NCBI RefSeq assembly: GCF_900128975.1
Contig: NZ_FQVC01000011.1
Coordinates: 62,001 to 126,000, forward strand
Reading direction: 5' to 3'
DNA length: 64,000 nt
DNA from: Devosia limi DSM 17137
Lineage (GTDB): Bacteria; Pseudomonadota; Alphaproteobacteria; Rhizobiales; Devosiaceae
Part shown: positions 24,194 to 28,214 of the stretch, piece after piece
How positions within the stretch are numbered: the first letter of the stretch is position 1
Layout: the number at the start of each line of letters is the position of its first letter
The notes under the pieces: generated by a model
Seen by the model: the letters and a program-made list of their open reading frames with translations, nothing else
What the model was told of the DNA's origin: nothing
Databases searched by the model: none
Translations under genes and position numbers: made by a program

Positions 24194-25084
24194 ATGATCA
24201 CTCTGGCCCATATCTCGGACGTTCACCTGTCGCCCATGCCTGACGTCGCCCTGCGCGACCTGATGGGCAAGCGCTTCACTGGTTTTCTGAACTGGAAGCT
24301 CAAGCGCCACGACGAACTCAACAGCGAGACACTGTCCAGCCTCGTTGAACACCTCAAACAACAGCATGCCGATTTCACCGCCGTCACCGGCGACATGACC
24401 AATCTGGCGCTGCCGACCGAGATTGCCCGCGCCGGAGCCTGGCTGGAAGCCCTTGGCGATAGCGAGCGCGTCTGTGTCGCCCCCGGCAACCACGATGCCT
24501 ATGTGCCCGGAGCGCTGGAAGAGGCCCAGCGCCTCTGGGGCCCGTATATGACCGGCGAAACGCTGGATCATACCGCCTTCCCCTTCGTGCGCCGCGTCGG
24601 CGAACTGGCAATCGTGTCTTGCTCCAGCGCCGTGCCGACCCGCCCATTCCTGGCCATTGGCCGCTTCGATGAAGCCCAGGCCGAGCGACTGGCCAAGGTC
24701 CTCAAGCTGCTGGGCGATGCTGACTATTTCCGCACGGTGCTGATTCATCACCCGCCCAATCCCGAATTGCAGCACCCCTCGTTTGGCCTCAAGGGCCACA
24801 AGCTGTTTCGCCAGGTCATTGCCGAACATGGCGCTGAGCTAATCCTGCACGGCCATACCCACCGCTCCTCGATCCATTCGATCGGTGGCCCCAAGCACGA
24901 AGTCCCGGTGATTGGCGTTGCCGCCGCCAGCGCCGCCCAGGGCGGCACCCTGGACGATCCGGCGCGCTACAATCTGTTCCGCATCGAAAAGACCGGCACC
25001 GGCTGGGCCTGCACGATGCGTGAATACGGCTATCAGCGGCTGGGCAGCGAAATCGTCATGCGCCTGCAGATGCGGATTTACTAA
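24194..25084 (+). CDS. Calcineurin-like metallophosphoesterase
   Basis: 296 residues with the full set of metal motifs: ISDVHLS (Asp9, His11), TGDMTN, GNHD (98-101), IHHPP and GHTH (about 220-223). This is the class III phosphodiesterase/CpdA-like subfamily by motif order, though cAMP cannot be assigned as substrate from sequence alone. About 110 bp upstream of the murL-like gene, same strand. Confidence 0.88.
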   Translation: MITLAHISDVHLSPMPDVALRDLMGKRFTGFLNWKLKRHDELNSETLSSLVEHLKQQHADFTAVTGDMTNLALPTEIARAGAWLEALGDSERVCVAPGNHDAYVPGALEEAQRLWGPYMTGETLDHTAFPFVRRVGELAIVSCSSAVPTRPFLAIGRFDEAQAERLAKVLKLLGDADYFRTVLIHHPPNPELQHPSFGLKGHKLFRQVIAEHGAELILHGHTHRSSIHSIGGPKHEVPVIGVAAASAAQGGTLDDPARYNLFRIEKTGTGWACTMREYGYQRLGSEIVMRLQMRIY

Positions 25085-25112: not shown

Positions 25113-25196
25113 ATGGCGAGAAAGCATCTATATATCGGCGAGACCAGCGGAAGCGCCGGCCGCTCCGTGATTCGTTCTAGAGTGATCCCAGTTTGA
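25113..25196 (+). CDS. Possible 27-codon leader ORF overlapping the murL start
   Basis: MARKHLYIGETSGSAGRSVI then RSRVIPV and stop. Its TGA overlaps the TTG start of murL as TTGA, the geometry of translational coupling. No good ribosome-binding site precedes its ATG, so it may be chance. Confidence 0.25.
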   Translation: MARKHLYIGETSGSAGRSVIRSRVIPV

Positions 25197-26521
25197 GCGC
25201 ACAATTTCTTATCGAACGCCCCGAGTTCGACCCCGCCACCGGCGTCGCCCGCTTCGCCTATGCCCTCGCCGGCAAGCGCTTTGTCGAAGTGCTCACCCTG
25301 CCCACCGGCGCTCCGGCCGAGGCGGCGGCAGGACCATCCTTCCGCAAGCTGCTGGATCTGACGGCGCTGGTCCTTGGGGTCAGCTATTTCAAGCTGACCG
25401 CGCCGCTGGAACTCAGCGCACCCGACCTGCCGCTGACCGAGGGCGAACGCGCCTTCGTCATCGATGTCTACGAGAACGGCCTCGGCGAATTCTACGCCCG
25501 CAACAATCTGATGCGTTTCGGCAAGCTCAGCATTACCGGGCCCGACGACAAGACGGTCATCCCGACCATCGCCCTGCCCGACCGCGCGCTGCTACCGATT
25601 GGCGGCGGCAAGGACTCGCTGGTCAGCGTTGAATTGCTGCAAGCTGCTGGCGTCGCCTTTACCCCGTTTGCGGTCAATCCCAGGGGGCCCATCCTGACCT
25701 CGATCGACAAGATCGGCACCGAGCCGGTTTATGTCACCCGCACGCTCGACGCCGAGATGATCCGCCTCTCCAGCGAGCCGGGCTATTACAATGGCCACGT
25801 CCCCTCCACAGCCATCAATTCGATGATCGCGGCGCTCTGCGCCGTGCTGTTCGGCTATAACCGCATCGTCTTGTCTAACGAGCGCTCCGCCAGCGAGGGC
25901 AATGTTGTGTTCGATGGCCGCGAGACCAATCACCAATATTCCAAGTCGCTCGGCTTCGAGCTGCTGATTTCCGACGTTCTGGGCAATGCCACCGGCGGGG
26001 CGCTGCAATATTTCTCGCTGCTGCGGCCCTATTCGGAAGCGCGGATCGCCTCCTTCTTCAGCCGCGAAACCAAGTTCGACAATGTCTTTTCCAGCTGCAA
26101 CCGCAATTTCCGACTAACCGGCAATGACGGCCCGCTCTGGTGTAGCGAATGCCCGAAATGCCATTTTGTCTTCCTGATCTTTGCGCCCTTCATGGCCAAG
26201 GAACGACTGCTATCGATCTTCGGCAAGAACCTGCTCGATGTGCCAGCCAACGAAGGCTCGTTCCGTGAGCTCGCGGGCCTTGCCGGGCAAAAGCCGTGGG
26301 AATGCGTCGGCGAAATCCTTGAGGCGGCCGCGTGCCTTTACTCGCTGACCCGCCACGCCGATTGGCACGAGGATGCGGTAGTCCGCGCGATCAAGGCCGA
26401 CCTCTTCAGCCAATATGGCGAGCCGGCGCTTCAGGCTGCATTGGCCGAATGCCTGACCGATAGCCACGATCACCACATTCCGCCGGCCCTCGCCGCCAAG
26501 GTGGCAGCCTATGCGCTTTGA
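25193..26521 (+). CDS. murL: UDP-MurNAc-L-Ala-L-Glu epimerase (MurL-like)
   Basis: 442 residues. I read it as MurL, which epimerises the terminal L-Glu of UDP-MurNAc-L-Ala-L-Glu to D-Glu with ATP. Visible features are a PP-loop-like IGGGKDS at about 136-142, FAVNPRGPILTSIDKIG after it, ERSASEGNVVFDGRETNHQY in the middle, and a Cys cluster WCSECPKC at 316-323. Such a P-loop of pyrophosphatase type fits the AMP-forming chemistry reported for MurL. The start is TTG at 25193. It overlaps the ligase gene by 11 bp, the expected partner, which is the strongest support. Confidence 0.82.
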   Translation: MSAQFLIERPEFDPATGVARFAYALAGKRFVEVLTLPTGAPAEAAAGPSFRKLLDLTALVLGVSYFKLTAPLELSAPDLPLTEGERAFVIDVYENGLGEFYARNNLMRFGKLSITGPDDKTVIPTIALPDRALLPIGGGKDSLVSVELLQAAGVAFTPFAVNPRGPILTSIDKIGTEPVYVTRTLDAEMIRLSSEPGYYNGHVPSTAINSMIAALCAVLFGYNRIVLSNERSASEGNVVFDGRETNHQYSKSLGFELLISDVLGNATGGALQYFSLLRPYSEARIASFFSRETKFDNVFSSCNRNFRLTGNDGPLWCSECPKCHFVFLIFAPFMAKERLLSIFGKNLLDVPANEGSFRELAGLAGQKPWECVGEILEAAACLYSLTRHADWHEDAVVRAIKADLFSQYGEPALQAALAECLTDSHDHHIPPALAAKVAAYAL

Positions 26522-27800
26522 AGAGCCCGTCCTGCTATACGGCGCCGGCCGTGAAGCGCAGTCGACCCGCGCCTTCCTCAAGGCCCGCCAGCCTGACCTC
26601 AAGGTCTTCGTCACTGTCGATAGCGGCGATGCCGGACTGGACGATGTGGAAGTCATTGCCCCCGATGACCTGAAGGCGGCGGTGCTGGCCCATCGCTTTG
26701 GCCTGATCATCAAGAGCCCCGGGGTTTCGCGCTACAAGCCGATCTTCGACATTGCGCGCGATACCGGCATTCCGGTCAGCTCCAATCTCAATCTCTGGGG
26801 CGCCGCCTATGGGTCGGGGCGCACCATCATCGCCATCACCGGCACCAAGGGCAAATCCACCACCGCGACGCTGGTCCACCTGATGCTGACCCATTCGGGC
26901 GTCGATGCCGGGTTGGCCGGCAATGTCGGGCTGGCGCCGCTCGAGATCGCCGACCGGCACGCCGTCGTGGTGCTGGAATTATCCAGCTACCAGACAGCAG
27001 ACATGAGCTTCCTGCCCGACATCGCGGCGGTGACCAATCTCTATCCCGAGCATGTCGACTGGCATGGCAATGTGCAGCGCTACTACAAGGACAAGCTGCA
27101 CCTGATCGATCGTGAAGGTGACTTCCGCATCGCACTCGGCACTGCGGCGCAGGGCAATAGCCTGGTACAGGCCGCCGTGCGCGACCCCAGCCAATTGCTG
27201 CCAGAGCTGGACGACCACGCCCTTGCGGCTATCGACGCAGCGGTGGGCAAGTCGCGCCTCAAAGGCGGGCATAATCTCGACAACGCCCAGCTCGCCGCGC
27301 GCATCGCGCTGGCCGCTGGCGGTACGCTCGATGGTATTGTCACAGGGATCGCCGCCTTCATGCCCCTGCCGCACCGGCTGGAAGAACACCAGTTCGGCGG
27401 TACAATCTTTGTCAACGACTCCATCTCCACCACGCCCGAGGCGACCAAGGCGGCATTGGCAGCCTATCGCGGCTACCGCATTGCCTTGATCGCTGGCGGT
27501 CACGAGCGCCAGCAGGATTACACAGAACTGGCATCGCTCCTGCCCGGCTACGGCGTCACCACCCTGGCTTGCCTGCCCGTCACCGGCGCAAGGCTGGCGC
27601 AGGCGGTGCGCACCGACGCGCCGCATATCAAGGTGCTGGCCGAGCCTGACCTGGAAACAGCCATGAACACATTGAGCGCGCACCGGCGCGACTTCGACGC
27701 CGTTATCCTGTCGCCTGGCGCGCCGTCCTACAATCAGTTCAAGAATTTCGAGGAGCGTGGCGCACGATTTGTCGGACTGGCACAAGCCATTTTCGGCTAG
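26511..27800 (+). CDS. murD2: UDP-MurNAc-L-alanine--L-glutamate ligase (MurD2-like)
   Basis: 429 residues of the Mur ligase family. The ATP loop ITGTKGKSTTATLVH starts near residue 109, followed by GNVGLAPLEI, LELSSYQTADM, TNLYPEHVDWHG and the C-terminal INDSIS/LIAGGHER region (FVNDSISTTPEATKAA; ALIAGGHERQQDY). It is MurD-like but overlaps a MurL-like epimerase gene, the arrangement of the MurD2/MurL route in Xanthomonas, where the ligase adds L-Glu instead of D-Glu. Substrate chirality is inferred from the neighbour, not visible in the sequence. A canonical murD would be expected in a dcw cluster elsewhere if this were extra. Confidence 0.82.
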   Translation: MRFEEPVLLYGAGREAQSTRAFLKARQPDLKVFVTVDSGDAGLDDVEVIAPDDLKAAVLAHRFGLIIKSPGVSRYKPIFDIARDTGIPVSSNLNLWGAAYGSGRTIIAITGTKGKSTTATLVHLMLTHSGVDAGLAGNVGLAPLEIADRHAVVVLELSSYQTADMSFLPDIAAVTNLYPEHVDWHGNVQRYYKDKLHLIDREGDFRIALGTAAQGNSLVQAAVRDPSQLLPELDDHALAAIDAAVGKSRLKGGHNLDNAQLAARIALAAGGTLDGIVTGIAAFMPLPHRLEEHQFGGTIFVNDSISTTPEATKAALAAYRGYRIALIAGGHERQQDYTELASLLPGYGVTTLACLPVTGARLAQAVRTDAPHIKVLAEPDLETAMNTLSAHRRDFDAVILSPGAPSYNQFKNFEERGARFVGLAQAIFG

Positions 27801-27881: not shown

Positions 27882-28214
27882 ATGAACGGCTTGATCTATC
27901 TCGCCATCGCCATTGTGGGCGAGGTGATCGCAACCTCCTTCCTGCGCGCCTCCGCCGGTTTCACTCAGCTTGTCCCCACCATCGTAGTGGTGGTTGGCTA
28001 TGGCGTGACCTTCTATTTTTTCTCGCTGGCTCTGCAGACGATTCCCGTCGGCATTGGCTACGCAATCTGGTCAGGCGTCGGCATCGTAATGGTCTCGATC
28101 ATTGCCTATTTTGTCTATGGGCAAACCCTGGACCTGCCGGCCCTGATCGGCATCGGCCTGATCCTGGCTGGCGTGTTGATCATCAACCTGTTCTCACAGT
28201 CGTCGACCCACTAG
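27882..28214 (+). CDS. SMR-family multidrug efflux protein
   Basis: 110 residues, four membrane helices. The essential membrane glutamate is Glu14 in LAIAIVGEVIATSFL; GYGVTFYFFSLALQTIPVGI and YAIWSGVGIVMVSII follow, all typical of EmrE/QacE proteins that exchange protons for quaternary cations. Members of the family also export guanidinium; the branch cannot be decided here. Start ATG at 27882. Confidence 0.92.
   Translation: MNGLIYLAIAIVGEVIATSFLRASAGFTQLVPTIVVVVGYGVTFYFFSLALQTIPVGIGYAIWSGVGIVMVSIIAYFVYGQTLDLPALIGIGLILAGVLIINLFSQSSTH

Follow-up and report, generated by a model that had tools for sequence, protein, structure and literature searches.

In the 64,000-nucleotide stretch of Devosia limi DSM 17137 analysed here (contig NZ_FQVC01000011.1, positions 62,001 to 126,000; hereafter the window), two overlapping open reading frames (ORFs) very probably encode the MurD2–MurL route, which would replace the glutamate racemase MurI and the canonical ligase MurD and is probably the sole route to peptidoglycan D-glutamate (D-Glu) in the genome. 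In this rare route, MurD2 would ligate L-Glu to UDP-MurNAc-L-Ala, and MurL would then convert the terminal L-Glu into D-Glu at the cost of one ATP, which is turned into AMP, and so provide the normal substrate of MurE; both reactions are known from other species. As probably the sole D-Glu route, the pair is therefore presumably essential in Devosia. The original prediction had described a MurL/MurD2-like pair with an 11-bp overlap; reading across the junction confirms the overlap (26511–26521), and the pair itself is supported by family profile, by specificity residues and by a genome without detectable alternative route.

The first ORF (25193–26521) matches a single NCBIfam model, that of MurL (NF041275, E 4.8e-116, residues 5–439 of 442); the Pfam scan of the window protein returns no family and the PADLOC scan nothing useful. 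A relative is encoded at 568 loci, the best 80 of which form our named set. Within these best 80, identity to the window protein is 62–82% in Devosia, then 52–65% in Arsenicitalea, Pelagibacterium and Maritalea, and 36–46% mostly in other alphaproteobacteria, Xanthomonas-type gammaproteobacteria and Micromonospora; a comparison with 15 other MurLs spans 35–83%. In an alignment of the window protein with 63 of the 80 (64 sequences), the PP-loop-like GGGKDS (residues 137–142) and the CxxCxxC cluster (C317/C320/C323), both of which had been picked out beforehand, are invariant in 64/64 sequences and hence not due to chance. Together with C302, the three cysteines of the cluster would bind zinc, and the invariant residues K67, H202, H247, K251, E370, C371 and E374 stand out as candidate bases. 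Pfam searches with the 64 MurLs return 12 families at E 0.022–0.83, each in one to three members, which look like noise.

The second ORF (26511–27800) is a MurD-type ligase, as had been proposed, and scores 260 bits against TIGR01087 (cut-off 211.95). In Xanthomonas oryzae MurD2, E197 and R358, which correspond to D182 and K348 of E. coli MurD, decide between L- and D-Glu, and the substitution K319T makes E. coli MurD accept L-Glu, as reported in PMC8788868. The window ligase departs from the canonical D182/K319/K348 pattern, which all 23 canonical MurDs from 23 genomes of the order retain as D/K/K (A414 is an alanine in 22 of them). Rather, it carries E, I and R at these positions and, as further features of MurD2, a proline at the A414 position, an aromatic Y407 and linkage to murL. 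The aromatic residue is not diagnostic, as F, Y or W occupies the L416 position in all 23 canonical MurDs as well. The E/I/R/P combination is present in the MurL-linked ligases of the genus at all 37 loci (31 genomes, D. limi included), as well as in 12/12 of those elsewhere in the class, where the ligase lies within the fetched stretch at 12 of 16 MurL loci. Among 78 named MurL-linked ligases, the four positions are E in 75 and D in three, I in 76 and L in two, R in all 78, and P in 77 with one gap. When 75 ligases are placed in a quick maximum-likelihood tree, a single branch (Shimodaira–Hasegawa-like approximate likelihood ratio test, SH-aLRT, 100) parts 50 MurL-linked ligases (34 from the named set of 78, 12 from the class, three from the genus and that of the window) from 25 canonical ones (23 of the order, one of the divergent genome G146 discussed below, and E. 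coli). Within the MurL-linked group, the deep order of which is not settled by this quick tree, a long branch (1.81) leads to the Devosiaceae ligases. The specificity residues are of the L-Glu (MurD2) type, and by all sequence signs the ORF is the L-Glu ligase MurD2 that serves MurL.

The usual D-Glu route is not detected in the D. limi genome, a draft of 4.30 Mb in 25 contigs with a completeness of 99.96%. The original prediction had tied the importance of the pair to a genome lacking MurI, and a genome-wide search with the MurI model (TIGR00067) returns no match at E≤0.001. Nor is a D-amino-acid transaminase found: the genome contains two class IV aminotransferases, of the IlvE and PabBC types, and the best score against TIGR01121 (D-amino-acid transaminase), 107 bits, belongs to IlvE. 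Five proteins match murD, and the window ligase alone exceeds the cut-off; the remaining four, all within the dcw cluster, are the other Mur ligases (murC was not scanned singly), and no second murD is found. The dcw cluster (L013, G000:C5:153000-172500) comprises rsmH, an ftsI-like gene, murE, murF, mraY, four other ORFs, an ftsW-like gene and murG, the FtsW-like protein reaching 310.9 bits against a cut-off of 337.5 and the FtsI match likewise falling under its cut-off. E. coli has the order mraY-murD-ftsW; in D. limi, the usual place of murD between mraY and ftsW (L013:11162-14757) is occupied by genes for an anti-sigma factor and an extracytoplasmic function (ECF) sigma factor (other strand), one further ORF (L013:12573-13364) and a major facilitator superfamily (MFS) transporter.

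The murL–murD2 pair recurs across the genus. We surveyed 37 genus genomes (D. limi included), 24 genomes from other families of the order and 384 other genomes of the class. MurL is present in 36/37 genus genomes, the exception being 62% complete, and in 0/24 genomes from other families, whereas MurI exceeds its cut-off in 0/37 and 15/24, respectively. Among the other families, five more of the 24 have a MurI match that is below cut-off but clear (E≤1e-22), and a sixth has a fragment (E 1e-9). A murD over cut-off is found in 36/37 genus genomes and in 23/24 of the others, and in 36/36 genus genomes the single murD adjoins MurL by coordinates. Elsewhere in the class, 16/384 genomes have a MurL match, and a MurI match is seen in none of these 16, among which 10 have a completeness of at least 90% and a contamination of at most 5%, and one is the divergent G146. 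A MurD-like ORF accompanies MurL at 78/80 named loci, including those of Arsenicitalea, Pelagibacterium and Maritalea: at 76 it immediately follows murL on the same strand, and at two Micromonospora loci (L129, L169) it lies upstream on the other strand. It was not found at L109 and L148, where MurL stands at a contig end. At one locus of a genus member (L205:972-4388, G015:C11), the MurL match is split over two frames, which may be an assembly error or a real break despite the expected essentiality.

The predicted structure of MurL suggests how the enzyme may work. An AlphaFold2 model built from the 64-sequence alignment (its predicted local distance difference test, pLDDT, and predicted template modelling, pTM, scores are given in Table 1) matches the PP-loop superfamily fold. 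In a Foldseek search of the PDB, all six matches at E≤0.001 are QueC chains (three) or chain B of QatB–QatC (two) and Cap9–CdnD (one) complexes, these chains being taken to be QatC and Cap9. Ranks 7–14 are TtuA and MnmA, below which PP-loop proteins mix with other folds. A profile search of PDB sequences with MurL identifies TtuA (E 0.0049) at its SGGKDS loop; a single-sequence search gives one chance-level match (E 1.3), and no MurL structure is found among the PDB sequences. When the MurL profile is compared with that of nine QueC-family proteins, PP-loop aligns on PP-loop and CxxCxxC on CxxCxxC over 174 columns. The QueC motifs are printed in PMC13329287 as SGGxDS and C(x)8CxxCxxC; those of MurL are GGGKDS and C(x)14CxxCxxC, with the motif letters and cysteines invariant in 64/64.

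It could be argued that this likeness reflects a shared nucleotide-binding core alone and that the chemistry of MurL is unrelated to that of QueC-like enzymes. The template modelling (TM) scores of the six Foldseek matches are modest when normalised to the query (0.30–0.41; 0.64–0.68 when normalised to QueC), none of the 64 MurLs matches Pfam QueC (PF06508) at E≤1, and the profile match is weak, at a probability of 17.8% and E 0.0014; with a smaller MurL alignment, the PP-loop alone aligns with QueC (probability 2.7%), which weakens the sequence-based case for kinship. Against this stand the exclusive ranking of QueC-type chains at the top of the Foldseek search and the in-register alignment of both motifs, the score of which (32.7) exceeds those of 200/200 column-shuffled QueC alignments (mean 15.6, standard deviation 3.0, maximum 28.4) and of the reversed alignment (19.5). 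In addition, the conversion of ATP to AMP by MurL is reported in PMC8788868. We therefore consider a merely shared core unlikely and MurL to be probably a distant relative of the QueC-family enzymes that works like them, without being a member of Pfam QueC.

PMC8788868 and PMC5808125 report that MurL requires ATP and Mg, yields AMP and acts solely in the L to D direction; they describe it as having no known domain, and the authors proposed adenylation of the α-carboxylate. A QueC-like fold fits the reported ATP-to-AMP chemistry, and a QueC-like site would give this proposal a structural basis. We suggest, as the likely though by no means assured reading, that MurL is an epimerase that uses the PP-loop scaffold of QueC/QatC and contains a structural zinc. 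The PP-loop enzyme would adenylate the α-carboxylate of the terminal Glu of the peptide, much as QueC activates a carboxylate, and thereby acidify the α-proton; the α-carbon would be inverted through conserved residues such as H202, H247, K251 or C371, with re-protonation from the other face followed by hydrolysis of the adenylate, and the release of AMP would make the reaction one-way. A role of MurL as a racemase of free glutamate was considered and rejected, as no such activity was found for the X. oryzae enzyme (PMC8788868).

A divergent MurL-like protein of 479 residues (E 9.5e-30) is encoded in the alphaproteobacterial genome G146 (L204:7113-8552, G146:C3), with no adjoining murD. It retains GGGKDS, SCN..WCxxCxxC and PFEC, and elsewhere the genome has a canonical-type murD and a transaminase-like gene and shows no MurI match. 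The protein may act on a substrate other than the peptidoglycan precursor. If the QueC-scaffold epimerase model is correct, a wider MurL-like group without MurD2, as in G146, would consist of epimerases of other carboxylates.

Several observations weigh against the proposed MurD2–MurL reading for D. limi. Since the genome is a draft, a gene in a gap is conceivable. The window MurL scores 387.9 bits against NF041275 and so falls below the 700-bit cut-off; the name of this model is tied to Xanthomonadales and its cut-off is passed by 0/61 relatives and 0/385 class genomes, so the protein is filed as a MurL orthologue outside this narrow model. The ligase exceeds the cut-off of the ordinary murD model, the name of which specifies D-Glu, and the D in place of E at the D182 position in three MurL-linked ligases (L133, L136, L144) contradicts a strict residue rule. 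The literature found holds no biochemistry on an alphaproteobacterial MurD2/MurL pair. In favour of the reading, MurL and a convincing MurI are both missing from three genomes in other families of the order (no MurI match in G039, weak ones in G042 and G056), and each of these encodes a transaminase-like protein with 240–258 bits to TIGR01121, against 107 bits in D. limi. Against it, the cut-off of 277 is passed in 0/5 genomes, so that no transaminase-like protein qualifies, and matches to the model occur in 12/14 control genomes, over cut-off in one. Among the genomes examined, those without MurI thus appear to have the MurL pair or else a gene of the transaminase-like kind.

Finally, the genome encodes five members of the Asp/Glu racemase superfamily (PF01177), of which NCBIfam assigns one as asp_race/PRK10200-like and three as EutA/arylmalonate-decarboxylase-like, the fifth being without match. 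The aspartate/glutamate-racemase-like protein L002 (L002:1483-2166, G000:C14) reaches 266 bits against PRK10200 (cut-off 417) and, when scanned alone, 22.9 bits against TIGR00067 (E 4.8e-5, cut-off 146.65), and weak matches of 19–33 bits to the MurI profile occur in 26/37 genus genomes; L002 may therefore supply free D-Glu to some extent. That such an enzyme feeds an ordinary D-Glu-specific MurD, with the MurL homologue doing something else, is nevertheless highly improbable, as no superfamily member scores at the level of MurI, the window ligase has the MurD2-type residue at each of the two positions that switch stereospecificity in X. oryzae MurD2, MurL adjoins the sole murD throughout the genus, and MurL holders elsewhere in the class have no MurI match.

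Table 1. Coordinates of the predicted murL–murD2 pair and of residues discussed in the text (window numbering).
Feature	Coordinates	Strand	Basis
murL (predicted)	25193..26521	+	442 aa, TTG start; NF041275 E 4.8e-116; AlphaFold2 model pLDDT 95.9, pTM 0.94
murD2, predicted UDP-MurNAc-L-Ala--L-glutamate ligase	26511..27800	+	429 aa, ATG start; TIGR01087 260 bits, residues, tree
PP-loop motif GGGKDS, MurL residues 137-142	25601..25618	+	invariant 64/64; profile-aligned to SGGKDS of TtuA and SGGxDS of QueC
C302, first cysteine of presumed zinc site	26096..26098	+	invariant 64/64; aligned with first Cys of QueC motif
CSECPKC, C317/C320/C323 of presumed zinc site	26141..26161	+	cysteines invariant 64/64; aligned with QueC CxxCxxC
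KPWECVGE, residues 367-374, candidate catalytic segment	26291..26314	+	E370, C371, E374 invariant; role suggested by conservation alone
E180 of the ligase	27048..27050	+	E. coli MurD D182, X. oryzae MurD2 E197; by alignment
I305 of the ligase	27423..27425	+	E. coli MurD K319; by alignment
R333 of the ligase	27507..27509	+	E. coli MurD K348, X. oryzae MurD2 R358; by alignment
P405-S-Y407 of the ligase	27723..27731	+	E. coli A414-S-L416, X. oryzae P433/F435; by alignment

The TTG start codon is the first ATG, GTG or TTG of the murL frame, because an in-frame stop lies five codons 5' of it. The pair is flanked upstream by a metallophosphoesterase gene (24194–25084) and downstream by a small multidrug-resistance (SMR) transporter gene (27882–28214). 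By tblastn, a phosphoesterase relative is present at 30/35 and an SMR relative at 19/35 of the nearest named loci (L093–L127), some of which end early, and neither is found at the 45 more distant named loci. A tetratricopeptide repeat (TPR)-type neighbouring ORF occurs at many Devosiaceae loci, and a glutathione S-transferase (GST)-type neighbouring ORF has zero matches and possibly a wrong frame; nothing is concluded from either. Around the pair, a repeat search finds just short two-copy families (20–27 nt) and two imperfect inverted pairs, such as often arise by chance, and scans return no promoter-like site (0.8 expected) and one terminator-like site (2.2 expected).

The pair supports the use of MurD2/MurL by an entire alphaproteobacterial genus without recognisable MurI or canonical murD. 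In this genus, automated annotation may assign misleading names, as its MurD2s pass the cut-off of the D-Glu MurD model and its MurLs fail that of the MurL model. Placing MurL near the QueC-like PP-loop enzymes points to where ATP and a metal are likely to bind and to a small set of residues for mutation, and makes the mechanism testable. Enzymes of this ATP-using family have been described in tRNA modification and in phage defence, and distant kinship with them may explain how MurL acts. We found no earlier statement of the likeness between the MurL and QueC folds in the openly available literature, subscription papers lying largely outside the search, and the word MurL is absent from the main texts of two papers on the QueC/QatC family.

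The window pair resembles MurD2/MurL of X. oryzae (XOO_1320/XOO_1319) in consisting of neighbouring genes of the same families, with the same residues at the E197, R358 and P433 positions, in a genome without detected MurI or D-amino-acid transaminase, and murL precedes murD2 as at the locus of X. hortorum (L157). The two systems differ in that identity to X. hortorum is about 40% for MurL and 33% for MurD2, the window ligase has Y at the F435 position of X. oryzae MurD2, and the Devosia pair is known here from sequence alone; according to PMC8788868, function has been reported for the X. oryzae enzymes and also for orthologues from Micromonospora sp. and Salinispora tropica. The same review of 2021 names Devosia, along with Pelagibacterium and Parvularcula, among the genera that have MurD2/MurL but no D-Glu gene, and nothing essential differs between our pair and the Devosia pair as listed there. 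The occurrence of MurD2/MurL in Devosia is thus already known; added here are the gap in the dcw cluster, the residue counts, the tree and the genus-wide distribution. With QueC, QatC and Cap9, MurL shares the predicted fold, the PP-loop, four cysteines ending in CxxCxxC and ATP-dependent carboxylate chemistry, but is distinct from QueC in the longer spacing before CxxCxxC, in its length of 442 residues, in having no match to the Pfam family and in its reported reaction, an epimerisation. This contrasts with canonical MurI and MurD, in that free L-Glu is not racemised in the MurD2/MurL route; instead, inversion follows ligation.

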